This document shows, in pieces, positions 1,132 through 17,145 of a stretch of 64,000 nt of DNA. The number at the start of each line of letters is the position of its first letter. The stretch's first letter is position 1. Source of the DNA: Ornithinicoccus hortensis (GTDB lineage Bacteria > Actinomycetota > Actinomycetes > Actinomycetales > Dermatophilaceae). The position numbers and the translations under genes are program-made. Where the stretch lies: NCBI RefSeq assembly GCF_006716185.1, contig NZ_VFOP01000001.1:1-64000 (forward strand), written 5' to 3'. Under the pieces are notes generated by a model. The model searched no databases. It was not told the DNA's origin and worked only from the letters and a program-made list of their open reading frames with translations.

Positions 1132-1994
1132 CCAGGTGGGTCCTCCTGGCGCTGAGCACCGCCCTCGCGACGTCCGCGCTCGCGCCCGCCGTGCTGTCGG
1201 TCCTGCACCGGCACGGCGCTATGGACGTGCCCAACCACCGCTCGTCGCACACCGTCCCCACGATCCGGGGTGGGGGCATCGCCTGCCTGATCGCGATCGT
1301 GGTGTGTGCGGCCGGGGCTCACTGGCTGGGCATGGGAGTGCCGTGGTGGGCTCTGACGGCTGCCGTGGCCATGGCGCTCCTCGGCCTGGTGACCGACCTG
1401 TGGGACCTCCCCCCTCTACCCCGGCTGCTCCTCCAGGTCCTGACCGGTGCCGCGCTCGGTGCCGTCCTCGACGGCCCGGGAAGCCTGCTGCTCGGGGCGA
1501 TCGCCTTCCCCGTCCTGATCAACGCGGTGAACTTCATGGACGGCATCAACGGCATCACCGGGCTCACCGTCACCGCGTGGGCCACCATCACAGTGTGCTT
1601 CGGGCCCTCGCACGGCACCGCGGTGCTGCTCGTGCTCGCCGGGTCTGCCGCGGCGGGCTTCCTGCCGTGGAACGTACCCCACGCCCGGATGTTCCTCGGT
1701 GACTGCGGGAGCTACCTATTCGGCGCACTGATCGCGGCCAGTGTGGTCAACGACCGCGTCACTGGCGGGTCCGGGTGGCTGCTGCTCGCCCCGCTGCTGC
1801 CCTACCTGGCCGACACCGGAGTCACGTTGCTCCGTCGTGCGCTGCGGGGCGAGGACGTGACCCAGCCGCACCGGGAGCACCTGTACCAGCGGTTGGTCCA
1901 CAATCGCGGGTGGAGTCACACCCGCGTGGCACTGCTGTATGCCGGGCTGGCACTCGCCTGCGGGGCCGGGGCACACCTGCTTGCGAGCGTCTGA
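1128..1994 (+). CDS. WecA/TagO/MraY-like undecaprenyl-phosphate sugar-1-phosphate transferase
   Basis: This 288-residue polytopic membrane protein shows the family landmarks in order: a D-x-PNHRSSH segment with TIRGGG near residues 37-55, the NAVNFMDGINGITG loop near 130, and FLGDCGSYLFG near 190. In this family the aspartates bind Mg2+ and the enzyme moves a sugar-1-phosphate from a UDP-sugar to undecaprenyl phosphate, the first membrane step of teichoic acid or O-unit synthesis. The ATG at 1128 overlaps the stop of the upstream epimerase, which fits a shared sugar substrate. It converges on the LCP gene, with five bases between the stops. Confidence 0.9.
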   Translation: MTRWVLLALSTALATSALAPAVLSVLHRHGAMDVPNHRSSHTVPTIRGGGIACLIAIVVCAAGAHWLGMGVPWWALTAAVAMALLGLVTDLWDLPPLPRLLLQVLTGAALGAVLDGPGSLLLGAIAFPVLINAVNFMDGINGITGLTVTAWATITVCFGPSHGTAVLLVLAGSAAAGFLPWNVPHARMFLGDCGSYLFGALIAASVVNDRVTGGSGWLLLAPLLPYLADTGVTLLRRALRGEDVTQPHREHLYQRLVHNRGWSHTRVALLYAGLALACGAGAHLLASV

Positions 1995-1999
1995 GCCGT

Positions 2000-3148
2000 T
2001 CAGCCACCGGTGAGTGCGTAGGACGTCCCGTACTTGTCGACATAACTGGACAGGTCACCACGGCGCAGCGCGTCACCCAGTTCCTTCGTGCGACCGGAGT
2101 CGAGCACGTTGATGGATGCTCCGCCGTCGGTCATCCCGAAGTGGGACACCGGCACCATCAACGAGGTGATGTTCTCCGGATCGATGTCGGACGCCAGGTC
2201 CACCATCGTCATCAACTGCTCCAGCGTGAGGTCGCCGTCGATCTTGACGTTCTGGTAGAGCATCGGCAGGAGCTCCTGCAGTTTCTCGGGCTCCTCCTCC
2301 CGGATCTCGACCAGACGGTCCATCATGCCCACGAGCGCCGCCCGGTGCCGCTCGGTCCGGTCGAGGTCCCCCAGCGGCATCGTCTTGCGTTCCCGCACGT
2401 AGATCAGGCCGTCGGTGTTCTCCAGGAAGATCCTGCCCTCCTCGAACACGATCTGCCGCCCGGTGGACTCGACGGTGACTCTGGTCTCGTGGGTGTTGTC
2501 CACCCAGAAGCCCTCCATCCAACGGGTGAGCGCGATGAACATGTCGAAGTTGGTCTGGGCGACGAAGTCGATCTCCAGCCCACCCATCAGGTCCGACACG
2601 GTGTCCCTGGCCAACGGGATGCCACCCATGGCGTATGCCTCGTTGACCTTGTTCTTGCCGTGTCCAGGGATGTCGACATACGAGTCACGTGCGATCGAGA
2701 CGAGGTTGAGGTGCTCGCGGTCCGCCGAGAGCTGCACCAGCACCATGACGTCCGACCTGCCGCTGAAGTCGTTCTCCCGCGAGTCCGAGCCCAGGACGAG
2801 CGCAGTGACGACACCCTCGGGCAACTCCTCCGCCGAGCCAGGGGTCTCCTCGTCCGTGTCGTCTTCATCGGTCGTCGTAGGGTCGGCCGGCCGCTCGTCC
2901 TCTGTTGTCTCCACCGGTTGCGACTGGCTGGTCTCGCTGCCGTCGTCGGTCGCTGTCGCTGACCCACGCGTGGTCGGCGCACTATCCGAGGTTGTGGTCC
3001 CGACCGTAGGCGCCCGACGGGCCGTTGTGGGGGCGGCCAGGCCCTCGGTCCCTGTCGGGGTCGAGTTGTCGTCGTTGTCACCGCAGGCGGTCACCAGCCC
3101 GAGGCACAGGACGAGCACGAGGATGCCGAGTCGACGGGCAATGGTCAT
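2000..3148 (-). CDS. LytR-CpsA-Psr (LCP) family protein with lipoprotein signal
   Basis: This 382-residue protein starts at ATG 3148 behind a GGAG ribosome site. The N-terminus is a hydrophobic stretch ending in LVTAC, a lipobox with Cys22. A Thr/Ser/Glu-rich linker of roughly 80 residues follows, then the LCP domain: LGSDSR, RSDVM, SIARDSYVDIPG, KVNEAYAMGG and YVRERKTMPLGDLDR. The Arg and Asp residues of these motifs bind the polyprenyl pyrophosphate. LCP enzymes transfer finished glycopolymer from its lipid carrier to peptidoglycan outside the cell. Most LCP proteins have an N-terminal transmembrane helix, so lipid anchoring here is uncommon. It is the likely last step for a polymer made by the neighbouring genes. 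Confidence 0.92.
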   Translation of the reverse strand: MTIARRLGILVLVLCLGLVTACGDNDDNSTPTGTEGLAAPTTARRAPTVGTTTSDSAPTTRGSATATDDGSETSQSQPVETTEDERPADPTTTDEDDTDEETPGSAEELPEGVVTALVLGSDSRENDFSGRSDVMVLVQLSADREHLNLVSIARDSYVDIPGHGKNKVNEAYAMGGIPLARDTVSDLMGGLEIDFVAQTNFDMFIALTRWMEGFWVDNTHETRVTVESTGRQIVFEEGRIFLENTDGLIYVRERKTMPLGDLDRTERHRAALVGMMDRLVEIREEEPEKLQELLPMLYQNVKIDGDLTLEQLMTMVDLASDIDPENITSLMVPVSHFGMTDGGASINVLDSGRTKELGDALRRGDLSSYVDKYGTSYALTGG

Positions 3149-3250
3149 CGGATCTCCTTCACGCCGAGAGGGCAAGCCAGCTTTTGCGGCTAACAGTGAA
3201 CCACGCCAACCGTTCCACGACGTGGGCCCGGAACCATTTCGACTGGCACA

Positions 3251-4159
3251 ATGGCCCGCATGACGACGCGCCGGGTGTTGGGGGCAGCCCTGGGATTCGG
3301 CTTCATCATCCTCAACATCGCAATCATTGCCCTGGTCGTGATCTCGACCTCGCAGCGAGGCTGGTCCGGGCTGCTGGGCCGCGAAACGACCGAGACCGCG
3401 GCGACAGCGGCACCAACCACGCCGCCATCCAGCCCCACCACTCCCTCGCCGACCGACGCCACGCCCTCGAGCACTCGTAGCGGGGACACCACACCGACGA
3501 CCGCCAGCCCCACCACGACACCCGAGCCGGAACCCGAGCCAACTCTGGCAGAGCGGTATGCCGACGGCGAGGCCCTCACCGTGGTCGTGCTGGGGGACCA
3601 GACCGGCGTGGACCCCGCGGACTGGGTGCTGGCCTGGGCGCGACAGTTGTCGGGCGCGCACGCCGTGGAGGTCTACGCCACCTCGACGGGCGACCCCACG
3701 CTCTATCTCGGACCCGAGACTCTCGGCCTGGGTGAGCCCCGGATCACCCTCTACAACGCCAGCCACATCGGCAATACACCGGGCTACGCGGCCAACCGAC
3801 TAGGGGCACTCCTGCCCGAGGACCCGGATGTAGTGCTCCTCAACTTCGGTCGCTCCAACGACCAGGAGGACATCACCGACGAGCTCCAGACGCTGTGGGA
3901 ATCCCTGACGCAGGACCGCGACCTGGACACTCGCGTCGTGATCCAGCCGCCCCGACAGGACGGCCAGCCTCCCTTGGACGAGCTGACACGGCAGTGGACA
4001 GAGGACAGCGACGCGGAGACGATCGACGTGGCAGCCGTGTTCGAGGAAGAGGGCATCGTATGGTCCACCGTCTCGGTCCGCGACCCGTTGTCGGTCAACA
4101 TCTATGGCGCGGGCCGGTGGGCGGAGATCGTGCAGTCCGAGCTGCTGGGCGGCGAGTAG
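3251..4159 (+). CDS. Membrane-anchored extracellular protein, possible SGNH-hydrolase-like domain
   Basis: This 302-residue protein has one N-terminal transmembrane segment (about residues 10-32), a Thr/Pro/Ser-rich linker of about 60 residues, and a globular domain starting near 105 with VVVLGDQTG and later NFGRSND. The pattern 'strand-G-D-x' followed by an N-containing block is reminiscent of SGNH/GDSL folds, but the nucleophile Ser is not in the usual place, so catalysis is doubtful. A second in-frame ATG at 3260 is an alternative start. It is divergent from the LCP gene and sits 13 bases before a transferase, so a role at the cell surface in the same pathway is inferred. Confidence 0.7.
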   Translation: MARMTTRRVLGAALGFGFIILNIAIIALVVISTSQRGWSGLLGRETTETAATAAPTTPPSSPTTPSPTDATPSSTRSGDTTPTTASPTTTPEPEPEPTLAERYADGEALTVVVLGDQTGVDPADWVLAWARQLSGAHAVEVYATSTGDPTLYLGPETLGLGEPRITLYNASHIGNTPGYAANRLGALLPEDPDVVLLNFGRSNDQEDITDELQTLWESLTQDRDLDTRVVIQPPRQDGQPPLDELTRQWTEDSDAETIDVAAVFEEEGIVWSTVSVRDPLSVNIYGAGRWAEIVQSELLGGE

Positions 4160-4172
4160 ACAGGATGGCGTC

Positions 4173-6050
4173 ATGGGTCACACCCTGAGTTCAGTCCGCA
4201 CCCAGCTCTGGCACCTCCGCAAGGGCGGCATCCGCCAGTGGCGGACGAACCGGGCGCGGGTGCGCGCGGTCGGCGGGCCCATCCCGACCCCCGCACGGGA
4301 GGAAGCCGTCAGCCTCAGCCGCGACCGGCAGGTGACGGAGTGGCCCCTCCCAGAGCGGCCCCCACGGCGCACGCTGCGCGTCGGCGTGATTCTGGACGAC
4401 TTCAGCGAGCTGGCCTTCGGCTACGAGTGGGACCAGACCGCGCTGACGCCCAGCGGATGGCGCGAGGAGATGTCCTCACCACCCGACCTGCTCTTCGTCG
4501 AGTCGGCCTGGGCCGGCAGCGGTGGCGCGTGGCGCTACGCCCTCACGGGTCCCAACGCACCGAGCCAGGCACTGCGTGACCTCGTGGCATGGTGCCGCGA
4601 CCAGGATGTGCCCACGGTCTTTTGGAACAAGGAAGACCCGGTGCACTTCGAGGACTTCATCGACACGGCATCCCTGTTTGACCACGTGCTCACCACCGAC
4701 GACGCAGTGGTGGCCGACTACCAGGCACGGCTCGGGCATGAGCGGGTCTCGGTCATGCCCTTCGGGGCGGCCTCCTGGGTGCACAACCCCATGCGACCCG
4801 CCGGGCACGCCCGGCGCGACGTGGCCTTCGCGGGCACCTACTTCGCGCACAAGTACCCGGAGCGCCGCGAGCAGATGGAGTTGCTCATCGGCGCCGCCGC
4901 TGCCGTGTCGCGCCGACTACCGACCGGGCTCGAGATCTTCTCGCGTTTCCGGGGTGGGGACGAGCGATACCAGTTCCCCTCCCCCATGGACGAGTACGTC
5001 GTCGGCTCGCTGTCCTACCGGCAGATGCTGACCGCCTACCGGGAGTTCAAGGCCTTCCTCAACGTCAACTCGGTCACCTCAAGCAAGACCATGTGCCCCC
5101 GGCGCGTGCTGGAACTCGCCGCCTGCGCGACCCCTGTGGTCTCCACCCCCGCGCCTGCCATCGCCGAGATCTTCCCGCCGGACGAAGTTCTCACTGTCAC
5201 CGAACGGGACCAGGCCGAGTGGACCATCCGCGCACTGGCCGGCAACGTCGAGTGGGGAGACCGGCTCGGTCACCTCGCTGCCCGCCGGGTGCTCGCCTCC
5301 CACACCTACCGCCACCGCGTCGACGGCCTGCTCGAGGCGGTGGGGCTGGCCCAGCACCGGGTCGAGGACCCGAGCATCTCGGTCATCTGCTCCACGAGGC
5401 GGCCCGAGCACCTCCGAGCCCTCGTGCAGACCGTCGCGAAGCAGCGGGAGGTCAGCCCCCAACTCGTGCTGCTCACCCACGGCTTCGAGCCCGACTTCGA
5501 CGTGCGTACTGAGGCCGTGGCTCTCGGCCTCACGGACGTGGTCCTCATCACCGCCCGGGCGGAGGTATCCCTCGGGCAGTGCCTGAACCAGTGCATCGAC
5601 GCAGCCGATGGCCAGGTGGTCGCCAAGATGGACGATGACGACCTCTACTCCGAGCACTACCTCGCCGACCAGCTCCGCGCGCTCGACTTCTCCGGGGCCG
5701 ACGTGGTGGGCAAGCACGCCCATCACATGCTGATCACCGACATGGACGCCCTGGTACTGCGCTTCGGCACGATGGAGAGCCGGTTTACCCACCTCGTCAT
5801 GGGCCCCACCCTGGTGATGCCCCGAGACGTCGCGTCGGAGTTCCGGTTCGCCGACCGGACGAGGGGCGAGGACACTGACCTTCTGGGCAGGATTGTCGCC
5901 GCCGGGGGCAAGGTCTACGCCTCGGACCGCTACGGGTTCGTGCAGGTGCGCCGACCCGACGGGCACACCTGGGACGCCAGCCACATGGAACTGCTAGCCA
6001 ACGGCCGGGTCGTGGCCTACGGATCCTCCGTCGAGCACGTCCTGATCTGA
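4173..6050 (+). CDS. Two-domain glycosyltransferase (CgeB-like GT plus GT2)
   Basis: The 625-residue product is placed at ATG 4173, with AGGA eight bases upstream; earlier in-frame codons would run into the preceding gene. Residues from about 70 to 395 resemble the CgeB-type glycosyltransferase fold: DDF near the start, FWNKEDP, a conserved FAGTYF and a C-terminal PRRVLELAACATPVV donor-binding block. From about residue 405 a GT2 domain begins (ISVICSTRR), with KMDDDDLYSEHY as the DxD-type metal site. Two catalytic domains in one chain suggest addition of two sugars, or a processive step. The next gene follows after 13 bases, so they probably share a transcript. Confidence 0.88.
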   Translation: MGHTLSSVRTQLWHLRKGGIRQWRTNRARVRAVGGPIPTPAREEAVSLSRDRQVTEWPLPERPPRRTLRVGVILDDFSELAFGYEWDQTALTPSGWREEMSSPPDLLFVESAWAGSGGAWRYALTGPNAPSQALRDLVAWCRDQDVPTVFWNKEDPVHFEDFIDTASLFDHVLTTDDAVVADYQARLGHERVSVMPFGAASWVHNPMRPAGHARRDVAFAGTYFAHKYPERREQMELLIGAAAAVSRRLPTGLEIFSRFRGGDERYQFPSPMDEYVVGSLSYRQMLTAYREFKAFLNVNSVTSSKTMCPRRVLELAACATPVVSTPAPAIAEIFPPDEVLTVTERDQAEWTIRALAGNVEWGDRLGHLAARRVLASHTYRHRVDGLLEAVGLAQHRVEDPSISVICSTRRPEHLRALVQTVAKQREVSPQLVLLTHGFEPDFDVRTEAVALGLTDVVLITARAEVSLGQCLNQCIDAADGQVVAKMDDDDLYSEHYLADQLRALDFSGADVVGKHAHHMLITDMDALVLRFGTMESRFTHLVMGPTLVMPRDVASEFRFADRTRGEDTDLLGRIVAAGGKVYASDRYGFVQVRRPDGHTWDASHMELLANGRVVAYGSSVEHVLI

Positions 6051-6063
6051 GCGCAGCAGGCTC

Positions 6064-9000
6064 ATGGATCCGGCACACGCAGCGCGCAAACTGGCTGGCG
6101 CGACCGTCCGCCGCTTCCGCAAGCCGACGGTGTCCGTGGTGATGCCCTGCCGGGACGGGGGCACACTCCTCGAGCCGGCCATCCGTAGTGTCCTCAACCA
6201 GGACCTGCGCGACCTGGAACTGATCGTCGTGGACGACGGTTCCACCGACGACTCGGTAGCGACCGTCAAGCGTCTCGCTGCCCGAGACCGTCGTGTCCGA
6301 TATCTCAGCACGGGCGGTGACGGGCGGGGCCCGGGCAGGGCCCGCAATCTCGGAGTCGCAGCGGCCAAAGGGCGCTTCCTGGCCTTCGCAGACGCAGACG
6401 ATCAGGTCCTCCCGGGCGCCTACAGCGCCATGTCAGCGGCACTGCGCCGCCGCGGCGTCGACATGGTCGTGGGCGGCTACCAGCGGCATGGGGCCGACGG
6501 CAAGCACCGGCCGCGCCTGGTGGAACGCATCCACGAGAAGGATCTCCCTGCGGTCGATGTCGAGGCCTGCCCACAGGTGCTCGACGAGGTCGTGATCTGG
6601 AACCGACTGTTCCGCATGTCCTTCTGGAAGCGCCACGTCGGTCCGTTCTCAGAGGAGGGCAACTACGAGGACCGTGAGCCTGCCCTGCGAGCCGCGCTGA
6701 ATGCCCGGCAATTCAGCCTGCTCGCGCGCGACGTGTACTCGTGGCGGCTTCCCGATGGTCGGCAGACCCGGTCCCAGCAGAAGGAGAACCTGTCTGACCT
6801 GCGCGAGCGGTTCGCCGTGGCCCGACGTGAGGTCGCGCTGCTCGAGAAGTCGCAACCGGTGGCACAGGCCCAGGTGTGGGCCAGGCTGCTGGGCAGCGAC
6901 CTCGGGCTGTATGCCGTCCACGTCCCGTCCGCTGACGATGCCTACTGGGAACAGTTCAGCGCCATGGCGGGGTGGCTGGCGAAGCGGGCACCCAAGGAAG
7001 TGTGGGCCTCTGTCCCTGTGTGGGAGCGCCTCCTGGCGAACTGTGCGGCGGCGGGCGTGCGGGGCGACGTCGAAGAGATCCTCGGCACCCGAGCCGAGGA
7101 CACTTCGGCGGTCCCACTCACCGTCGTGGACGGCACGACCCTCCAAGCCGATCTCGAGGTCGTGGAACGGTTGCGAACTCCGCTGGCTCCATCGCTGATG
7201 GTGGTTCCTCCCGAGATGGTTCACGCGGTCGGCGGCATCCAACGAACGGAGTGGGTCTCCTCCGACGAGGTGCAGATCGACGGTTACGCCTACGTGCCGG
7301 GGCTGGCAGGCGACACCGAAGGACTCACAATCCGGGTCCTTCAAAAGGACGCCCTGCAGGCGCACGAACTGCCGCTTGAGGCCAGGACCGACGACACCAT
7401 TGACATCGAGTCTGGAGACCCGTGGCGCTCGTACCGCACCGGCGGCTTCACTGTGCGAGCACCCGCATCATCATGGCAACCCGTTCCCGGCCCGCCCAGG
7501 GACCTGACGCTCGAGGTCCACCTGACGTGGAAAGGGGCGCGTTGGAGGGTGCCACTCTCGCTCACCCTCCCCCCAGCGGATCCTGCCGACCTCGGGGGCG
7601 ACGCGGCGTCGACGGCCAGCGATTCTGCCCACGTCCTGATCGACGACGTACAAGTTGACGGCGCCGGCATCGTGCTCTCGGGCACGACGGGCCCGGGGAC
7701 TCCAGAGCTGCGAGTCGGGTTGGTCACCTCCTCGCGAGAGTTCGCCTCCGCGGCCACCCCTGAGGAGGACGGTACCTTCCAGGCGACGCTGAGGGTGACG
7801 GACGGCGCGGCACTCCCCAGCGACGGCTACTTCGTCAGGTGGGCCGCCAACGGTGGCCCACTGTCCGGGTGGGCACGGCCGGGAGTCGCGCTCCGCGAGG
7901 GGCCGATCGAGTCCAACAGCCCGATCCAGCGCATCACAGCCCGGTGGCATCCCGGCACCACGGCCGTCTCGGTCACCGTGAGCCCCCCGCTGTCACTCAG
8001 CGAGCGATCGCGTCTGGGCCAACGTCGTCTGCGGGAGGTCTACCGGACTGCGCCACTAGAGCGGGCCGTGCTCTTGGAGGCATTCAATGGCAAGACGTGT
8101 GGAGACAACCCTGGGGCGATCGCCGGGGGGTTGCGGGAGGCGGGCGTCGACGTGCCCCTCTATTGGTCGGTGCGCGACCTGTCAGTGCCCGTTCCTGAGG
8201 GCGGGACGCCACTGGTGATCGGCTCGGAGGACTGGCACCGGGTGCTGTCGACCGCCACCGTGCTGATAAACAACAACAACTTCCCGCACTGGTTCACCAA
8301 GCGCCCTGGGCAGTTCTACCTGCAGACATGGCACGGCACACCGATCAAACGGCTTCTCTGGGACCTCCCACCTGGTCGCGTCCCCCTGACCTACCGCCGG
8401 CTCATGCGTCGGCAGGTGCCAATGTGGGATCTTCTCCTCGCGCAAACGAATGCAGCCGAGCGGGACCTACGGTCCGGGCTCGGGTACACCGGCCCGGTCC
8501 TGGTCACCGAGCAGCCCCGAAACGCCGTCCTGGCCGAGGGCGAAGCAGCACGCCAACGGGCGCGGGCCCACTACGGCATCCCGGCCGACGCGCGCGTGAT
8601 CCTCTATGCACCCACTTGGCGGGAGCCTGACCGCACGGCCGCTCGGGCGGGCACGTGGACAGATGCGCTCGATGTCGAGCAACTCGCTGTCACCACCGAC
8701 GCCTGGGTGTTGGTCCGCAGCCACCACCTCAGCCGTCGCGCACCCGTAGGCGAGGCACGCGTGATCGACGTGAGTTCGCACCCGCAGGTGGAGGAGTTGA
8801 TGCTGGCCGCCGACGTGCTCGTGAGCGACTACTCTTCGATCCTCCACGACTGGTCCCTGCTGGGGCGACCGGCCATGCTGTTCACCCCCGACTTGGCTCA
8901 CTACCGCGACGCTGAGCGCGGGTTCTACGGCGGTTGGCCAGGCTCGGCCTCCTGGCCCCTGTCCACCGATGAGGCCGAGCTCGGGGAGCTGGTGCTCACC

Positions 9001-9120
9001 GCCCTCGAAGTACCTCCGACACTGCGCGAGTCATGGGCCGACTCACGGGTCACTGAAGGGTGTCGCGAGGTAGTCGCTCGTGTCATTTGCTGTATAGGCG
9101 ACGCAGAATCTGAGATTTAG
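6064..9120 (+). CDS. GT2 glycosyltransferase fused to CDP-glycerol glycerophosphotransferase
   Basis: The product has 1018 residues. Residues 20-250 are a GT2 domain (VSVVMPCRDGG, IVVDDGSTDDS, ADADDQ). A middle region of beta-rich character follows. The last ~400 residues are a TagB/TagF-type domain with FLQ/YLQTWHGTPIKR, ILYAPTWR, SHH and DVLVSDYSSILHDW. Such domains transfer glycerol-phosphate (or related polyol phosphate) from CDP-alcohols to a growing chain at the inner membrane face. A paralogue of the C-terminal half is broken at 22515-23940 and a longer relative lies at 18392-22042. The last dozen residues (VICCIGDAESEI) end just 12 bases before an IS end and may not be native. Confidence 0.9.
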   Translation: MDPAHAARKLAGATVRRFRKPTVSVVMPCRDGGTLLEPAIRSVLNQDLRDLELIVVDDGSTDDSVATVKRLAARDRRVRYLSTGGDGRGPGRARNLGVAAAKGRFLAFADADDQVLPGAYSAMSAALRRRGVDMVVGGYQRHGADGKHRPRLVERIHEKDLPAVDVEACPQVLDEVVIWNRLFRMSFWKRHVGPFSEEGNYEDREPALRAALNARQFSLLARDVYSWRLPDGRQTRSQQKENLSDLRERFAVARREVALLEKSQPVAQAQVWARLLGSDLGLYAVHVPSADDAYWEQFSAMAGWLAKRAPKEVWASVPVWERLLANCAAAGVRGDVEEILGTRAEDTSAVPLTVVDGTTLQADLEVVERLRTPLAPSLMVVPPEMVHAVGGIQRTEWVSSDEVQIDGYAYVPGLAGDTEGLTIRVLQKDALQAHELPLEARTDDTIDIESGDPWRSYRTGGFTVRAPASSWQPVPGPPRDLTLEVHLTWKGARWRVPLSLTLPPADPADLGGDAASTASDSAHVLIDDVQVDGAGIVLSGTTGPGTPELRVGLVTSSREFASAATPEEDGTFQATLRVTDGAALPSDGYFVRWAANGGPLSGWARPGVALREGPIESNSPIQRITARWHPGTTAVSVTVSPPLSLSERSRLGQRRLREVYRTAPLERAVLLEAFNGKTCGDNPGAIAGGLREAGVDVPLYWSVRDLSVPVPEGGTPLVIGSEDWHRVLSTATVLINNNNFPHWFTKRPGQFYLQTWHGTPIKRLLWDLPPGRVPLTYRRLMRRQVPMWDLLLAQTNAAERDLRSGLGYTGPVLVTEQPRNAVLAEGEAARQRARAHYGIPADARVILYAPTWREPDRTAARAGTWTDALDVEQLAVTTDAWVLVRSHHLSRRAPVGEARVIDVSSHPQVEELMLAADVLVSDYSSILHDWSLLGRPAMLFTPDLAHYRDAERGFYGGWPGSASWPLSTDEAELGELVLTALEVPPTLRESWADSRVTEGCREVVARVICCIGDAESEI

Positions 9121-9132
9121 GCGAACTTTCGG

Positions 9133-10010
9133 GGCTCTTCGCAGTTGAGGGTGTAACGGTCGTCCGCGCGTCGCTCGCTGGATGAGGGTCGAGGTCTTCC
9201 GATGATGGGAGTTCTCACACCGCCCATCCGAAAGACCTCGACGTGCCTGACGCTACTACCTTCGCCTGCCCCGACCTGACCACCTTCACCCGCCTGGACG
9301 ACCTCGGGCTGGAGGCGACCGGCCAGCTGCTCAAGCCCGACCGCGCCGTCTTGAAGTGTCGGGTCGTGGACCCCGACGACTGGTGCCGCCGGTGCGGCTG
9401 CCAGGGCGTGGCCAGGGACACCGTCGTCCGTCGGCTCGCGCACGAGCCGTTCGGGTGGCGTCCCACCACCCTGCTGGTCACGGTGCGCCGGTACCGGTGC
9501 TCCGAGTGCGGCCACGTGTGGCGCCAGGACACCACCGCCGCGGCCGAGCCACGGGCCAAGATCTCCCGGGGCGGGCTGGCCTGGGCCCTGGTCGGCATCG
9601 TGGTCCAGCACCTGTCCATGGCTCGCGTCGCCGAGGGGCTGGGCGTGGCGTGGCACACCGCCAACGATGCTGTCCTGGCCGAAGGACACCGGCTGCTGAT
9701 CGACGATCCGGCCCGTCTGGACGGGGTCGAGGTCCTCGGGGTCGATGAGCATTGTTGGCGTCACACCCGTCGCGGGGACAAGTTCATCACGGTGATCATC
9801 GACCTGACCCCGGTCCGTGACGGGACTGGGCCGGCGCGGCTGCTGGACATGGTCGAGGGCCGCTCGAAGAAAGCGTTCAAGACCTGGCTGGACGAGCGGG
9901 AACAGACCTGGCGCGACGGGGTGCAGGTGGTGGCCATGGATGGTTTCAGTGGCTTCAAGACCGCCACCACCGAAGAGCTGCCCGAGGCGGTCAGCGTGAT
10001 GGATCCGTTT
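9133..10010 (+). mobile_element. Truncated ISL3-family element, 5' half (left copy)
   Basis: Starts with the GGCTCTTCGCA terminal sequence shared by the intact copies and runs to GGATCCGTTT at 10010, where the RIT element begins. Compared with the other copies it carries scattered substitutions, some changing the protein (LDD for LDE, LLK for LLE, HEP for HAP). The 3' half of this copy is not in the window. The 8 bases before it (ACTTTCGG) do not match those after the right half copy (GGAAAACC), so no target duplication brackets the pair. Confidence 0.88.
9243..10010 (+). pseudogene. ISL3-family transposase, N-terminal 256 residues only
   Basis: GTG-initiated transposase identical in layout to the 434-residue intact copies: an N-terminal zinc-binding region with WCRRCGCQG and YRCSECGHVW, then the start of the DDE catalytic domain (VLGVDEH, VVAMDGFSGF). 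It is interrupted after SVMDPF by the RIT terminal repeat. The frame continues 27 codons into that repeat and stops at 10091, giving a 282-residue fusion that lacks the last catalytic acidic residue region. It should be inactive as a transposase. Confidence 0.9.
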
Positions 10011-10091
10011 TATGCCGATGTCCCGGTTATGCCGATGTCGTGGGTGTCGGTGCTGGTGGGGGACGTGCGGCGGATGGTGAGGTCGGCATAA
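10011..10091 (+). repeat. RIT left terminal inverted repeat
   Basis: The 81-bp repeat matches 13291-13371 in inverted orientation with one difference. It has internal structure: TATGCCGATGTC at 10011-10022 and again at 10028-10039 (17-bp period), and the inverted form TCGGCATA at 10083-10090. These repeated and opposed half-sites are what one expects for tyrosine recombinase binding. Confidence 0.9.
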
Positions 10092-10148
10092 CCGGACGGC
10101 GTGGGCGGACGCTGTTGCCTTCGGATTTCTCACGAAGGGAGCACGACC

Positions 10149-11372
10149 ATGCACAGCATCGCGAATCCGAGAGGTGTCCGGTTCACGGGCCCGCTGACGC
10201 CGGTAGCGGCCGGTCTGCGGGAGGAGCTGGCCGCACGGGGTTATGCCTCGTCGTCGGCGACCATCCAGCTGCAGCTGGCAGCGCACCTGTCTCGCTGGCT
10301 GGAAGAGCACGGAATGGATATGGCTGATCTCAATGGGAGCGTCCTGGAACAGTTCCTCGCCGACCGTCGTGTCGATCACACCAACCTGTCCTCGTTGCAG
10401 GCGCTGGCGCCGACGCTGGAGTATCTGCGCAGGACCGGGCAGGCGCCTCCTCCGGAGCCGCCGGTACCGGTAGGCCCGGTCGAGGAGGCACTGGCCAGGT
10501 TCGAGGAGTACCTGCTGGTGCAGCGCTCGATCTCCGCCGCGGTGGCACAGGCCTACCTGCGATGGGTGCGTCCGTTCGTGGCGCAGCTGCCCGTGGTCCA
10601 GGATGAGTTGGCCCTCGTGAGGCTGGACGCCGCGCAGGTCAGCCGGTTCGTCACCGGCCACCTGCCAGGGCTGAGCCGCAAGAACGCCCAGATGACGGCG
10701 ACCTCGCTGCGCTCGTTCCTGCGGTTCGCCCACGTCGAGGGCCTAGTGGGGGTCGACCTGGCCCCGGCCGTGCCGCCCTTCGCGTTTCGTCGCCAGTCCG
10801 GGTTGCCCGAGCCGCTGACGGCGCAGCAGGTACATGCCCTGACCGACGCGTGCGACCCCTGCACGGCGGTGGGCCGGCGCGACCTGGCCGTCATCACCTG
10901 CCTGGTACGGCTCGGGCTGCGCTGCGGGGAGGTCGCCGACATGGTCCTGGAGGACCTGGACTGGACCGGCGGGACCATCACGGTGCACGGCAAGGGAGGC
11001 CGGATCGACGTGATGCCGCTGCCTGTCGACGTCGGCCAGGTGCTCGTGGCCTACCTGCGGCAGGGCCGACCCTCCACGACCGAGCGAGTCGTGTTCCTCA
11101 CCGCCGTGGCACCCATCAGGGCGCTGTCCCGCTCCGGTCTGAGCTGCATCGTCGCCCGGGCCGCGCGACGCGCCGGGCTGGGGACGATCCATGCCCACCG
11201 GCTGCGGCACACCGCGGCCTCGGCCACCCTCAACGCCGGGGCCACCCTGGAGCAGGTCTCCCACCTGCTGCGTCATGTCAGCCCGGCGACGACCGCGGTG
11301 TACGCCAAGACCGACCTTGCCCGGCTGTCCACCCTGACCCGGCCCTGGCCGACCTCCGGGAGCCGGTCATGA
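10149..11372 (+). CDS. RIT tyrosine recombinase, first of trio
   Basis: The 407-residue protein starts at ATG 10149, with GAAGGGAG about seven bases upstream. An N-terminal SAM-like core-binding region is followed by the catalytic domain. The tyrosine recombinase residues are visible: Arg258 (LRCGEV), Lys282 (HGKGG), His350/Arg353 (HRLRH), His376 and nucleophile Tyr385 (VYAK). It is the largest of the three. Strand cleavage and rejoining at the terminal repeats is the expected role. The stop overlaps the next start. Confidence 0.93.
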   Translation: MHSIANPRGVRFTGPLTPVAAGLREELAARGYASSSATIQLQLAAHLSRWLEEHGMDMADLNGSVLEQFLADRRVDHTNLSSLQALAPTLEYLRRTGQAPPPEPPVPVGPVEEALARFEEYLLVQRSISAAVAQAYLRWVRPFVAQLPVVQDELALVRLDAAQVSRFVTGHLPGLSRKNAQMTATSLRSFLRFAHVEGLVGVDLAPAVPPFAFRRQSGLPEPLTAQQVHALTDACDPCTAVGRRDLAVITCLVRLGLRCGEVADMVLEDLDWTGGTITVHGKGGRIDVMPLPVDVGQVLVAYLRQGRPSTTERVVFLTAVAPIRALSRSGLSCIVARAARRAGLGTIHAHRLRHTAASATLNAGATLEQVSHLLRHVSPATTAVYAKTDLARLSTLTRPWPTSGSRS

Positions 11373-12298
11373 ACGCCGGGCTGCCCGGGCTGCTCGAGGA
11401 CTACCTGCGGGTGCGGCGGGCGCTGGGGTACAAGCTGGAGGGCACCGAGGCCCTCCTCACCCAGTTCCTGGGCTACCTGGACCAGCAGGGCGCCGAGACG
11501 ATCACCATCGAGCACGCCCTGGCGTTCGCGACCGCGCCGGTCGGAGTCTCGCCACGGTGGCACGCGCTACGGCTCTCGGCGATCCGCTGCTTCGCACGGT
11601 GGGCGTGGGCCAGCGACCCCCGGGTGCAGGTCCCGCCGGCCCGGCTGCTGCCGGCCCGACCCACCCGAAGCGCGCCCTACATCTACAGCGAGACCGAGGT
11701 CCTGGCCATGCTGGCCGCCGCCGACCATCTGCGCCCGACGATCCGCGCGACCACGTTCCACACGCTGATCGCGTTGATGGCCGCCACCGGCCTGCGCACC
11801 GGGGAAGCCATCGGGCTGGACGTGGACAACCTGGACGTTGCCGCCGCGACGCTGCGGGTGCGGGGCAAGTACGGCAAGACCCGGCTGCTTCCGTTGCACC
11901 CCAGCGTGCTGGCCGGCCTCACCGGATACCTGCAGCAGCGCGCCCGCCTGCTGCCCGCCGAGGACTGCCCGGCCCTGCTCATCTCCAGCACGGGACGACG
12001 CCTGGCCCGCTCGACGCTCTACCCCACGTTCAGCACGATCCTCACCGAGGCGGGGATCGAGCCGGTCAGCACGACCTGCCGGCCCCGACTGTTCGACCTG
12101 CGTCATACCTTCGCGGTCAGCACGATGCTGGACGCCTACCGGTCCGGGGCCGACCCCGCCGCCGTCCTGCCGGTCCTGTCGGCCTGGATGGGGCACACCG
12201 AGCCCAGCGACACCTACTGGTACCTCACCGGCACCAGCGAGCTGCTCGCAGCAGCGGCCGACCGGCTTGCCTCGTCCCGGGCAAAGGTGCCGCGATGA
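11369..12298 (+). CDS. RIT tyrosine recombinase, second of trio
   Basis: The 309-residue protein is coupled to the first by ATGA. Catalytic residues: Arg143 (GLRTGEA), Lys167/Lys170 (GKYGKTR), Arg245 (FDLRH), His276 (MGH) and Tyr285. The first His of the usual HxxR box is replaced by Phe242. This can be tolerated in some tyrosine recombinases, but it makes this subunit the least canonical. Within RIT elements each position in the trio forms its own subfamily, so it probably has a distinct site preference or accessory role. Confidence 0.92.
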   Translation: MNAGLPGLLEDYLRVRRALGYKLEGTEALLTQFLGYLDQQGAETITIEHALAFATAPVGVSPRWHALRLSAIRCFARWAWASDPRVQVPPARLLPARPTRSAPYIYSETEVLAMLAAADHLRPTIRATTFHTLIALMAATGLRTGEAIGLDVDNLDVAAATLRVRGKYGKTRLLPLHPSVLAGLTGYLQQRARLLPAEDCPALLISSTGRRLARSTLYPTFSTILTEAGIEPVSTTCRPRLFDLRHTFAVSTMLDAYRSGADPAAVLPVLSAWMGHTEPSDTYWYLTGTSELLAAAADRLASSRAKVPR

Positions 12299-13290
12299 CG
12301 CTGCTGGCACCCACCCTGGAGGCGTTCTTCACCACCCGGCTGACAGGTCAGCTCGGCGCGAGCACGCACACCATCGCCGCCTACCGCGACACCTGGCGAC
12401 TTCTGCTGCGCTTCGCTGCCGAGGACACCGGCACACCGCCGCACGCCCTCGACCTGGCCCAGCTCGACGCCGACCTGATCACCCGGTTCCTGAACCACCT
12501 TGAGGGCGAGCGGGGCAACAGCACCACCACCCGCAACGCGCGCTTGGCCGCGGTGCACTCCGTGTTCGCCTACGCCGCCGTCGAGCACCCCGAGCACGCC
12601 GGTTCGATCAACCGGGTGCTGGCCATCCCCGCCAAGCGACGTCAGCGCCGCACCGACATCACCTACCTGACCGAGCCGGAGGTCACCGCGTTGCTGGGCG
12701 CCCCTGACCAGGACACCAAGGCCGGCCGGCGCGACCACGCGCTGATCCAGGTCGGCATCACCACCGGCCTGCGGGTCAGCGAGCTGACCGGCCTGCGGTG
12801 GCGCGACGTCCACCTCGGTACCGGCGCCCACGTCCTGGCCCACGGCAAGGGCCGCAAGGACCGCAGCACCCCGCTGGACCAGGACACCGTCAAGGTTCTG
12901 CAGGCATTGGCCGAGGCCACCGGCTGCGACGCTGACGCATTCGTCCTGACCACCCGCACCGGGACCAGGATGAGCCGCGACGCTGTCGCGGCACGTCTCA
13001 CGCTGCACGCCCAGACCGCAGCGACGGCCTGCCCGTCCCTGACCAACAAGACAATCACCCCGCACGTGCTTCGCCACACCGCGGCCATGCGACTGCTCGC
13101 CTCCGGCATCGACAGCACCGTCATCGCCCTGTGGCTGGGCCACGAAAGTATCGACACCACCCAGGTGTACCTGCACGCCGACCTGGCCACGAAAGAGGAC
13201 GCCCTGGCCAGAACCGCACCGACCGGCACCCCCACCGGCCGCTACCACCCGCCAGAGGACGCACTCCTCACGTTCCTGCAGAACCTGTGA
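12295..13290 (+). CDS. RIT tyrosine recombinase, third of trio
   Basis: The 331-residue protein is coupled to the second by ATGA (12295-12298). It has a classical phage-integrase/XerC-like layout: core-binding domain (residues 5-105), then Arg160 (TGLRVSEL), Lys185 (GKGRKDR), His257/Arg260 (HVLRH), His283 (LGH) and Tyr292 (VYLH). All catalytic residues are present. Its TGA is followed directly by the right terminal repeat, with no intergenic space. Confidence 0.93.
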   Translation: MTLLAPTLEAFFTTRLTGQLGASTHTIAAYRDTWRLLLRFAAEDTGTPPHALDLAQLDADLITRFLNHLEGERGNSTTTRNARLAAVHSVFAYAAVEHPEHAGSINRVLAIPAKRRQRRTDITYLTEPEVTALLGAPDQDTKAGRRDHALIQVGITTGLRVSELTGLRWRDVHLGTGAHVLAHGKGRKDRSTPLDQDTVKVLQALAEATGCDADAFVLTTRTGTRMSRDAVAARLTLHAQTAATACPSLTNKTITPHVLRHTAAMRLLASGIDSTVIALWLGHESIDTTQVYLHADLATKEDALARTAPTGTPTGRYHPPEDALLTFLQNL

Positions 13291-13371
13291 TTATGCCGAC
13301 CTCACCACCCGCCGCACGTCCCCCACCAGCACCGACACCCACGACATCGGCATAACCGGGACATCGGCATA
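13291..13371 (-). repeat. RIT right terminal inverted repeat
   Basis: Inverted partner of 10011-10091; the single difference is GTGGTGA against ATGGTGA near the inner end. It begins TTATGCCGACC directly after the third recombinase stop. Together with the IS halves outside, the perfect-to-near-perfect inverted repeat grows to 959 bp per arm (9133-10091 and 13291-14249). Confidence 0.9.
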
Positions 13372-14139
13372 AAACGGATCCATCACGCTGACCGCCTCGG
13401 GCAGCTCTTCGGTGGTGGCGGTCTTGAAGCCACTGAAACCATCCATGGCCACCACCTGCACCCCGTCGCGCCAGGTCTGTTCCCGCTCGTCCAGCCAGGT
13501 CTTGAACGCTTTCTTCGAGCGGCCCTCGACCATGTCCAGCAGCCGCGCCGGCCCAGTCCCGTCACGGACCGGGGTCAGGTCGATGATCACCGTGATGAAC
13601 TTGTCCCCGCGACGGGTGTGACGCCAACAATGCTCATCGACCCCGAGGACCTCGACCCCGTCCAGACGGGCCGGATCGTCGATCAGCAGCCGGTGTCCTT
13701 CGGCCAGGACAGCATCGTTGGCGGTGTGCCACGCCACGCCCAGCCCCTCGGCGACGCGAGCCATGGACAGGTGCTGGACCACGATGCCGACCAGGGCCCA
13801 GGCCAGCCCGCCCCGGGAGATCTTCGCCCGTGGCTCGGCCGCGGCGGTGGTGTCCTGACGCCACACGTGACCGCACTCGGAGCACCGGTACCGGCGCACC
13901 GTGACCAGCAGGGTGGTGGGACGCCACCCGAACGGCGCGTGCGCGAGCCGACGGACGACGGTGTCCCTGGCCACGCCCTGGCAGCCGCACCGGCGGCACC
14001 AGTCGTCGGGGTCCACGACCCGACACTTCAAGACGGCGCGGTCGGGCTCGAGCAGCTGGCCGGTCGCCTCCAGGCCGAGCTCGTCCAGGCGGGTGAAGGT
14101 GGTCAGGTCGGGGCAGGCGAAGGTAGTAGCGTCAGGCAC
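13372..14139 (-). pseudogene. ISL3-family transposase, N-terminal 256 residues only (right copy)
   Basis: Starts at GTG 14139 and runs to SVMDPF, then enters the RIT repeat and stops at 13291. The translated part equals the first 256 residues of the intact 434-residue transposase, including LDELG, LLEPD and HAPFGW, which differ in the left copy. The C-terminal catalytic part is missing. Confidence 0.9.
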
Positions 14140-14249
14140 GTCGAGGTCTTTCGGATGGGCGGTGTGAGAACTCCCATCATCGGAAGACCTCGACCCTCAT
14201 CCAGCGAGCGACGCGCGGACGACCGTTACACCCTCAACTGCGAAGAGCC
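13372..14249 (-). mobile_element. Truncated ISL3-family element, 5' half (right copy, inverted)
   Basis: The same 5' half as the left copy, in opposite orientation, broken at exactly the same base (AAACGGATC next to the RIT end) and ending at 14249 with CGAAGAGCC. Its sequence matches the intact copies rather than the slightly diverged left half. It is separated from the next intact IS by 33 bp (14250-14282). Confidence 0.88.
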
Positions 14250-14274
14250 GGAAAACCCTGCGCTCTGAAGAGCC

Positions 14275-14282
14275 GCTTTACA
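14275..14282. repeat. 8-bp target-site duplication, left
   Basis: GCTTTACA directly before the IS end at 14283 is repeated at 15710-15717 after the other end. Eight bases is the usual duplication length of ISL3-family elements. It is preceded by CTCTGAAGAGCC, which itself resembles an ISL3 end. Confidence 0.9.
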
Positions 14283-15709
14283 GGCTCTTCGCATTCAAGG
14301 GTGTAGTTGGGGTCTGAATCCGCCGGCCTCGAGGAGTGCGCGTGCGATGTAGTTGGTGAGGTTGCGGAACCCGAGGGCGGAGCCCCTCAGGTGCTCGAGG
14401 CGGCCATTGATCGCTTCTGTAGGCCCATTCGATGTGCGGGGACGGTCGAAGTAGGCCAGGACGTCCTCGGCGCGGCGGGTCAGGGTGCGTCCGAGCCTGC
14501 GCAGCTCGCTCAGACCGGCCGGGACGCCCTGGCGGACGGCATCGATCACCGACTGCATCTGCTCGCGGCCCTGGCTGCGGTCGGGTTCGCGGTAGGCGGC
14601 GACCATTCGCTGGTAGATGCCCCAGGTCGCCTCGACCGCGACGTGCTGCTCGACCGCGAAGAGCGCCTCAAGGCGGGCTTGCTGCTTGTCGGTGAGCAGG
14701 TCAGCGCCGGTGTGCAGGGTCCGCCGGGCCGAGTACAGCGGGTCGCCCTTGCGGCCTCGGTGCCCGCAGGTCTCCTGCTGGACTCGGCGACGACAGTCGT
14801 CCATCGCCTCCCCGGCCAGCTGGACTACGTGAAACGGATCCATCACGCTGACCGCCTCGGGCAGCTCTTCGGTGGTGGCGGTCTTGAAGCCACTGAAACC
14901 ATCCATGGCCACCACCTGCACCCCGTCGCGCCAGGTCTGTTCCCGCTCGTCCAGCCAGGTCTTGAACGCTTTCTTCGAGCGGCCCTCGACCATGTCCAGC
15001 AGCCGCGCCGGCCCAGTCCCGTCACGGACCGGGGTCAGGTCGATGATCACCGTGATGAACTTGTCCCCGCGACGGGTGTGACGCCAACAATGCTCATCGA
15101 CCCCGAGGACCTCGACCCCGTCCAGACGGGCCGGATCGTCGATCAGCAGCCGGTGTCCTTCGGCCAGGACAGCATCGTTGGCGGTGTGCCACGCCACGCC
15201 CAGCCCCTCGGCGACGCGAGCCATGGACAGGTGCTGGACCACGATGCCGACCAGGGCCCAGGCCAGCCCGCCCCGGGAGATCTTCGCCCGTGGCTCGGCC
15301 GCGGCGGTGGTGTCCTGACGCCACACGTGACCGCACTCGGAGCACCGGTACCGGCGCACCGTGACCAGCAGGGTGGTGGGACGCCACCCGAACGGCGCGT
15401 GCGCGAGCCGACGGACGACGGTGTCCCTGGCCACGCCCTGGCAGCCGCACCGGCGGCACCAGTCGTCGGGGTCCACGACCCGACACTTCAAGACGGCGCG
15501 GTCGGGCTCGAGCAGCTGGCCGGTCGCCTCCAGGCCGAGCTCGTCCAGGCGGGTGAAGGTGGTCAGGTCGGGGCAGGCGAAGGTAGTAGCGTCAGGCACG
15601 TCGAGGTCTTTCGGATGGGCGGTGTGAGAACTCCCATCATCGGAAGACCTCGACCCTCATCCAGCGAGCGACGCGCGGACGACCGTTACACCCTCAACTG
15701 CGAAGAGCC
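14283..15709 (-). mobile_element. Intact ISL3-family insertion sequence, copy with target duplication
   Basis: A 1427-bp element with imperfect ~23-bp terminal inverted repeats (GGCTCTTCGCATTCAAGGG at the 3' end of the transposase, GGCTCTTCGCAGTTGAGGG at its 5' end), one transposase gene and GCTTTACA duplicated on both sides. It is an independent, relatively recent insertion, because the duplication is still perfect. Confidence 0.95.
14295..15599 (-). CDS. ISL3-family transposase
   Basis: The 434-residue protein has a GTG start at 15599. The N-terminal zinc-binding region contains two CxxC pairs (WCRRCGCQ and YRCSECGH). The DDE catalytic domain follows, with VLGVDEHCWR (first Asp), MDGFSGF and MDPFHVVQ, and the family's C-terminal SNGPTEAINGRLEHLRG, which carries the conserved Glu. 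The product cuts and rejoins the element ends. The gene fills nearly the whole IS and is intact, with no premature stop. Confidence 0.95.
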   Translation of the reverse strand: MPDATTFACPDLTTFTRLDELGLEATGQLLEPDRAVLKCRVVDPDDWCRRCGCQGVARDTVVRRLAHAPFGWRPTTLLVTVRRYRCSECGHVWRQDTTAAAEPRAKISRGGLAWALVGIVVQHLSMARVAEGLGVAWHTANDAVLAEGHRLLIDDPARLDGVEVLGVDEHCWRHTRRGDKFITVIIDLTPVRDGTGPARLLDMVEGRSKKAFKTWLDEREQTWRDGVQVVAMDGFSGFKTATTEELPEAVSVMDPFHVVQLAGEAMDDCRRRVQQETCGHRGRKGDPLYSARRTLHTGADLLTDKQQARLEALFAVEQHVAVEATWGIYQRMVAAYREPDRSQGREQMQSVIDAVRQGVPAGLSELRRLGRTLTRRAEDVLAYFDRPRTSNGPTEAINGRLEHLRGSALGFRNLTNYIARALLEAGGFRPQLHP

Positions 15710-15717
15710 GCTTTACA
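15710..15717. repeat. 8-bp target-site duplication, right
   Basis: GCTTTACA directly after the IS end at 15709, the same as 14275-14282. Confidence 0.9.
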
Positions 15718-15801
15718 CACAATAGCCAAGGCGCCGAGGCCTTCATCGATCCGGCCCGCCTCATGAACAGTCCCGGATAGATTCACAGCCCAACAAAGAG
15801 A

Positions 15802-17145
15802 CTACGAAAGCTTCGCGTCCGCCGACGACTGCAACCACTGCTCGAACACTGTCATTGCGCCCTTCGCTTCCACACTCCACGCGCCAGCCATCGGAATCTG
15901 GTCCGCCAAGGGGAAGCCGGAAGGCGCAATAAATGTCCCACCTAAGGCAAGGTCGGCCACACCATCCCACAAACGACACTGATACGCCGAAGCGGCCTTT
16001 CTAATCAACAGGAGGTGCGAAGCAAACTCTGAGCTCCGGTCCCACGCTTCGCCCAGTGCAGGAAGGAGTAGATTCCAGGCAACCGTCGGCAACGCGAGCG
16101 CGGACATACCAGCATTCTCTAACGCTCCCTGCAGCTTCACAAGCGAGTACCGCGAAGTTGGAACACCAACAACCGGAGAAGCTGACGGCAAAGCGAATAC
16201 AGCCGGGTGATACCGAGAAGAGATCGACACGCGCGACATCTCCATTAACGCAACCAGTGTTTTTGCCCGAACGCCGGGGAGCGCACGGACCAGACCACTT
16301 TGACTCGCGCCAACGATTGCTGCGTGGGAAATCTGATCCGCCTTATCGTACCCCGCCGGCAACGAAGCCATATGGGGCACCAAAAGGACATCACACCCAT
16401 GAGACAGCGCAAACTTGTCCAACAATGAAGAAACGCGCGCAACATGCTCTTCCTTCGACCAGGGCAGGCTGCCATTGCGACCAGGAAAAGACCCGATAAC
16501 AAACGGCCTACCGCTTGGGGCATACATCGCAGCCTCATCCCGATCTGCACCATCGGCGTTCAATAAGATGGCGTCATCGAAACTTCGGACAATCTTACGA
16601 CTATCCAAATCAAGACCCAATGCGAGGCCATGAGAAATCGACTCTCGACAGCCAACAACCTTAGCCATATGAAGCACGGACTGAACTAGCTCACCCACAC
16701 GACCCTCAATAGTAGGGCCAATAGTTTGACTAAGGACTACGAGGGGCTTGCCAAACTTCGTGGCCGCAAGCGCAAACGCGTATCGCTCAAAGACATGGCT
16801 TGGGAACTGAGAAGCCAAATTTCCACCGCCCGCAATGATAGCGATATCGCACTTCCGCAAAGCTTCAAGGAGAGGAGACTCGGAGACTTCGCCGCGGTCA
16901 AGATCGCGTTCGACCTTGCTCAGCAACTCCTCGTGCTCGGCCATCCTCCACTTCGAGCGAAAACCAAATCTTGCAACCGATGAAACTCCATACATCTCCC
17001 GAGCCACGGCGGGACTGCCAGCCACGAGAACAGGCTCCACATCCCGTCTCCGAAGCTCCGCAACAGCCGCCTCCGTCATCGCTTCATCGCCAAGATGATA
17101 AAGATATCGCCATCCCACATCCCCGAGCACAACAGCAGTAGCCAC
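15802..17145 (-). CDS. Polysaccharide pyruvyl transferase family protein
   Basis: The 447-residue protein is placed at GTG 17145, with AGAAAGG about eight bases upstream; a TTG further out (17187) is less likely. The N-terminus MATAVVLGDVGWRYLYHLGDEA has the G-D motif of the family, with IIAGGGNLASQF in the middle and SSRYHPAVFA near residue 330. Family members add pyruvate ketals to sugars or act as related phosphate/sugar transferases. Third codon positions are less GC-biased than in the left part of the window. A second family member lies 61 bases upstream on the same strand. Confidence 0.85.
   Translation of the reverse strand: MATAVVLGDVGWRYLYHLGDEAMTEAAVAELRRRDVEPVLVAGSPAVAREMYGVSSVARFGFRSKWRMAEHEELLSKVERDLDRGEVSESPLLEALRKCDIAIIAGGGNLASQFPSHVFERYAFALAATKFGKPLVVLSQTIGPTIEGRVGELVQSVLHMAKVVGCRESISHGLALGLDLDSRKIVRSFDDAILLNADGADRDEAAMYAPSGRPFVIGSFPGRNGSLPWSKEEHVARVSSLLDKFALSHGCDVLLVPHMASLPAGYDKADQISHAAIVGASQSGLVRALPGVRAKTLVALMEMSRVSISSRYHPAVFALPSASPVVGVPTSRYSLVKLQGALENAGMSALALPTVAWNLLLPALGEAWDRSSEFASHLLLIRKAASAYQCRLWDGVADLALGGTFIAPSGFPLADQIPMAGAWSVEAKGAMTVFEQWLQSSADAKLS

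Follow-up and report, generated by a model that had tools for sequence, protein, structure and literature searches.

In the window, that is, the whole 64,000-nt stretch of Ornithinicoccus hortensis DNA analyzed here, a RIT element was found between two inverted 5' halves of the same ISL3 insertion sequence (IS), and comparison with other genomes suggests a recurrent by-product of RIT attachment to a fixed site, by which two target copies are fused and, in this case, the DNA between them was apparently deleted. The order was an ISL3 5' half (+), the RIT element and an inverted ISL3 5' half (-) (Table 1). Both halves were 878 bp long and were cut at the same base, each ending in ...GATCCGTTT. 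The inverted arms (9133-10091 and 13291-14249) were 959 nt each and 99.2% identical; seven of their 8 differences were located within the IS part and one within the terminal inverted repeat (TIR). The outer octamers, ACTTTCGG vs GGAAAACC, did not match. Transposition of 9133-14249 as a unit, in the manner of a composite transposon, was rejected on account of these unmatched octamers. The initial annotation had described the same-base cut, the inverted halves and the unmatched octamers, and all of this was borne out.

Table 1. Features of the RIT locus and its right-hand neighbor (positions in the window)
Feature	Position	Strand
Left arm, ISL3 5' half (IS positions 1-878), 7 private differences	9133..10010	+
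Left spacer (TCCGTT, 6 bp): core at the junction of IS half and RIT end, within left arm	10004..10009	+
RIT element, 3363 bp	10010..13372	+
Left TIR, 82 bp	10010..10091	+
ritA, tyrosine recombinase, PF00589	10149..11372	+
ritB, tyrosine recombinase, PF00589, ATGA overlap with ritA	11369..12298	+
ritC, tyrosine recombinase, PF00589, ATGA overlap with ritB	12295..13290	+
Right TIR, 82 bp, one difference from left TIR	13291..13372	-
Right spacer (6 bp; TCCGTT on the - strand), not followed by a P palindrome	13373..13378	-
Right arm, ISL3 5' half (IS positions 1-878), identical to intact copies	13372..14249	-
Intact neighboring ISL3, 1427 bp; context, outside the RIT product	14283..15709	-
8-bp repeat GCTTTACA bounding the intact neighboring ISL3	14275-14282 and 15710-15717	

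The central element, 3363 bp long, carried three tyrosine recombinase genes side by side, each slightly overlapping the next (PF00589 in each, ATGA at both overlaps), between 82-bp TIRs; this gene set, the TIRs and a total size of about 3.5 kb are those of RITs. Homologous recombinase trios elsewhere had the same gene order as ritA-ritB-ritC. These genes filled the space between the TIRs, and the other listed ORFs overlapped them; among the listed ORFs, there was thus no separate fourth gene comparable to the conserved one of SEs and GInts. The Rfam scan of 8900-16000 gave no match. In a normal insertion, a palindrome of about 20 bp (P, typically TTATGCCGACGTCGGCATAA) stands on one side of the RIT; at the window RIT, P scored 0 on both sides by the automated rule. 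The window element is read as a rearranged RIT and not as a non-member, since its other features were present and P was likewise lost at 7 other loci.

The source genome was a single contig of 3.94 Mb, in which the window RIT was the only one found by DNA search and by RitC protein search, and in which the exact P pattern was not found. Window positions 1-8610 recurred as an exact repeat at the contig end (G000:C1:3926633-3935242), most likely an untrimmed circular overlap. Besides two intact copies and the two halves, the listed ISL3 DNA matches comprised a 53-bp piece and an 83% copy at 802126. The genome-wide list (E <= 0.001; 40 of 320 first-look candidates scored) contained no ISL3 3' half standing alone; the initial annotation had noted that no 3' half was present at the locus. 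One intact copy, which that annotation did not mention, adjoined the right arm at a distance of 33 bp; the other was located at 25366-26792 (-). The ISL3 transposase domain PF01610 was detected in the intact copy and in the left arm.

The intact copies were 100% identical to each other and, across its 878 bp, to the right arm. The 7 private differences of the left arm were confined to IS positions 170-425, and at each of them the G010 copy agreed with the right arm. These differences, together with the unmatched octamers, uphold the earlier claim that two separate IS copies were involved. It was also observed that the inner 453 bp next to the RIT were identical between the arms (the chance of such a gap with 7 random differences was 0.049), and gene conversion between the arms is a possible explanation of the identical inner part. 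Matching 8-bp repeats bounded the first intact copy (GCTTTACA), the 83% copy at 802126 (CGTTATAA) and the RIT-carrying ISL3 of the genome G308 (GGTTTTGT); none was found at the second intact copy, at the G010 copy or, as expected, at the two arms. The unmatched flanks of the second intact copy (CCATATCC / ACCAATCT) suggest a further rearrangement.

The normal form of a RIT insertion was established from relatives, where the recurring arrangement was t-half–N6–RIT–N6–P–N6–p-half. G308, which belongs to the same order as the window's genome, contained two RITs, whose RitC proteins shared 72% identity with that of the window. One of them (L133) was a normal insertion at the same ISL3 base, with a 5' half, the RIT, P and a 3' half, and its IS was still bounded by the matching 8-bp repeats on both sides. 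The 3' half of this RIT-carrying ISL3 was interrupted at 8833-10257 by a later insertion of about 1.4 kb. The other (L132) was the mirror of the window locus, in that its RIT was flanked by a pair of inverted ISL3 3' halves and a P stood on each side. A one-P normal insertion at the same ISL3 site was also found in a Pseudonocardiaceae contig (L071), with a t-side flank of only 107 bp. Thus the strict target site proposed in the initial annotation was recovered in two other sources, and L133, with one half of each kind, was what that annotation had expected of a single insertion. A search of 24 genomes of the G308 family for the ISL3-specific P junction pattern returned only G308 itself, and in a plasmid DNA search for close RITs, no match reached 80% coverage of the query.

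Visual comparison of four pairs with a shared target (L071/L133, L100/L101, L148/L197 and L083/L084) showed that P kept its target side while the genes faced either way. The orientation of the RIT body is therefore free relative to the target. A fixed P side with a flipping body would be expected of a circle junction RIT–N6–P–N6–RIT, in which two inverted attachment sites share P. The 6-bp spacer recurred on the t side, on the p side and inside, and the three copies could be compared in 24 of the 30 one-P loci of the curated reading; the mean mismatches per 6 bp were 0.75 (t/p), 0.96 (t/inner) and 1.17 (p/inner), and 4.2 for shuffled t/p. Some inner spacers differed from the target only at a would-be wobble base (ATCCGTT/ATCCCTT at L133), and such a difference, judging from the sequences, may record an earlier site. 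At L150, L076 and L077, the RIT ends adjoined a His-Glu-x-x-His-like coding motif, recognized by eye, near ArdC-like genes; hence, RIT targets are not only transposases. At L149 (Aromatoleum EbN1 plasmid 2) and L087, RITs were located within tyrosine recombinase genes, in the H-x-x-R-H region, and the targets of these insertions included relatives of the RITs' own ritC.

P counts and inverted halves were compared at 39 of 61 distinct trio loci (64 entries with three double readings), namely those at which both junctions could be placed, a non-random sample in which some loci are related. The other 22 were dropped because of unplaceable junctions or contig ends (L070, L072, L073, L076-L079, L081, L082, L103, L104, L107, L109, L136, L143, L182, L188, L190, L191, L193, L194, which is a near copy of L192, and L196). 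An initial reading of P by eye was followed by an automated rule with a background rate of 0.7% per flank, under which 26 loci had a single P, 11 had no P and 2 had two. The curated reading gave 30, 8 and 1, respectively: L106, L084 and L198 were moved by eye from zero to one P (degenerate palindromes, weak at L198), and L138 from two to one P (second palindrome out of register).

All nine of the 39 loci with an abnormal curated P count (zero or two) had inverted same-family halves. In-register inverted arms were detected by blastn at 7 of the 39 loci (the window, L132, L139, L145, L149, L089 and L090) and by tblastx at L075. At L087, the arms were recognized by Pfam only, both Phage_integrase proteins ending at profile position 139 of 172, and sequence comparison found none. 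None of the 30 curated one-P loci had blastn arms; weak tblastx matches at three of them (L102, L137 and L189) had 28-36% identity and were mostly out of register. With the automated P call and the eight arm loci, Fisher's test gave 2.1e-5, or 0.002 if the three weak tblastx matches were counted; 4 of the 11 automated zero-P loci (L087, L106, L198 and L084) had no sequence arms. At other loci, the arms were only about 65-90% alike, which indicates different genes. Zero-P and two-P forms stood at 8:1 (binomial 0.039) among nine loci, some of them related. Flanks were short at L139 (96 bp) and L134 (148 and 131 bp). At L177 (G732), inverted similarity started 108 bp off a P, and this locus was left uncounted.

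Palindromes standing alone were also found. The exact P pattern occurred in 7 of 396 genomes in the order scan and in 13 of 394 in the class scan; the two sets overlapped, and together they gave 23 distinct places, of which 16 were read individually and 7 lay within RIT loci already described. In the genome G739, L183 and L184 each consisted of a lone P between inverted p-halves starting at P, with only 169 bp beyond P at L184. All four arms matched the p-side flanks of the RITs L195 and L219, and one arm contained a Resolvase domain. This is the structure that recombination between an integrated RIT–N6–P site and an empty target should leave as its reciprocal product. G739 had five RitC matches, including a one-P RIT (L218) and a complex RIT (L219); a matching zero-P RIT was not seen in this draft of 280 contigs. 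The P pattern gave no new site in 35 genomes of the G739 family. Exact P-like palindromes with a shared context occurred in three genomes without nearby trio genes (L179, L180 and L185) and are probably unrelated to RITs.

With moderate confidence, we propose that the window structure arose from a single RIT. It would have integrated once, by tyrosine-recombinase exchange at the 6-bp spacer, into the GATCCGTTT motif of the ISL3 transposase gene, a conserved motif coding for D-P-F. The product would be 5'half-N6-RIT-N6-P-N6-3'half, in which P comprises two recombinase-like half-sites. The integrated form would keep a spare attachment site like the one already used, RIT end-N6-P, and this would then have recombined with the same motif of a nearby second ISL3 in inverted orientation. 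The RIT would thereby gain a second 5' half, while P, both 3' halves and any intervening DNA would leave as a lost product. We infer this order of events, the enzyme responsible and that the loss here was a deletion. A deletion, which the initial annotation had also postulated, is the simplest reading since neither a 3' half nor P was found elsewhere in the genome; without a P, the reciprocal product seems to be lost. An undeleted relative, which that annotation had suggested looking for, was not found: when the other 30 genomes of the genus were searched, the gene to the right of the locus had no match, and all matches to the gene on its left were partial.

The initial annotation had instead assumed that two RITs entered two inverted ISL3 copies at the same base and that recombination between them removed everything between, including both 3' halves. 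Such recombination could be homologous or site-specific, and both Ps would have been removed as well. This would yield exactly the window product with no P. Its reciprocal exists in G308, where L132 has a RIT with two Ps between inverted 3' halves and a second RIT occupies the same ISL3 site; L132 is more simply explained in this way, which counts against the origin from one RIT. However, two RITs are needed and the genome has one, and zero-P and two-P forms should then be about equally frequent, which disagrees with the 8:1 observed. The lone Ps of G739 would require an extra excision step. Integration of one RIT followed by use of its spare site predicts lone Ps and few two-P forms, and two lone Ps and the 8:1 ratio were seen; it is further supported by the one-P form with matching IS repeats at the same ISL3 base in G308, by the fixed side of P, by the agreement among the spacer copies, by the association of abnormal P counts with inverted halves and by the lack of P in the window's genome. 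The lone Ps could, on the other hand, also come from RIT excision at a two-P locus. Both routes yield the window structure, and the one requiring a single RIT is favored; recombination between two RITs is possible but less probable. A second RIT is thus unneeded, and the opposite relative orientation that had been ascribed to the two RITs is unnecessary, as the body orientation is free.

It is improbable that a single RIT-bearing 5' half was duplicated locally in inverted orientation or copied by fold-back replication. The 82-bp TIRs could prime fold-back, and the high identity of the arms and their identical inner 453 bp would fit; however, the private differences are all in the left arm, whereas the right arm matches two other IS copies exactly; the identity breaks off precisely where the IS ends and unlike flanks begin; and at other loci the arms are far less alike. 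Still less credence can be given to an assembly artefact. Long identical IS copies do lie close together, and the untrimmed 8610-bp overlap of the contig ends stops 523 bp left of the locus, but the arms differ by 8 bases, the outer flanks differ, and the same class of structure occurs in independent assemblies, some of them complete plasmids.

On the basis of these sequence comparisons, RITs may tentatively be regarded as double-headed integrative elements, which would keep a second live attachment site after integration and repeatedly weld members of the target family head to head (t-RIT-t), the other halves being joined by a bare 20-bp palindrome (p-P-p). If so, deletions and inversions between transposase and recombinase gene copies would be a programmed outcome of their activity. 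The one-P, zero-P, two-P and lone-P forms all exist; they provide a concrete, testable att-site scheme and explain sequence variation at RIT ends. Where inverted IS halves flank a RIT, they may be the trace of an earlier deletion or inversion and not of a simple insertion.

In the available text of PMC2864759 and PMC3414803, RITs of Cupriavidus metallidurans CH34 and others are described as having three tyrosine recombinase genes with ATGA overlaps, a size of about 3.5 kb and a terminal inverted repeat (28-9 bp, with an overlapping palindromic sequence), and as inserted into transposase genes (IS66 tnpA, Tn6049-like transposase); an experimental demonstration of RIT mobility is given as lacking (PMC3414803). 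The window RIT resembles these elements in its recombinase trio, overlaps, size, TIR and transposase-gene target. Beyond that text are the position of P on a fixed target side, its loss or doubling together with inverted same-family halves, and its occurrence alone. A literature search, in which the main RIT paper (Ricker et al. 2013) was outside the scope, gave no paper that treats RITs flanked by inverted target halves, and the pattern may already be in print. ISL3-family insertion sequences share the DDE_Tnp_ISL3 transposase with the copies described here, several of which had 8-bp flanking repeats; unlike the usual ISL3, the element here is a target, two copies being cut at the D-P-F codons and neither being whole. 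SEs and GInts, as far as described in the available text of the further literature (PMC10214605, PMC8138268, PMC5385486), share with RITs several tyrosine recombinases, a 6-bp spacer at the joints and spacers recording earlier sites, whereas SEs are larger, have a fourth conserved gene and are described there without a P palindrome or inverted-half products.
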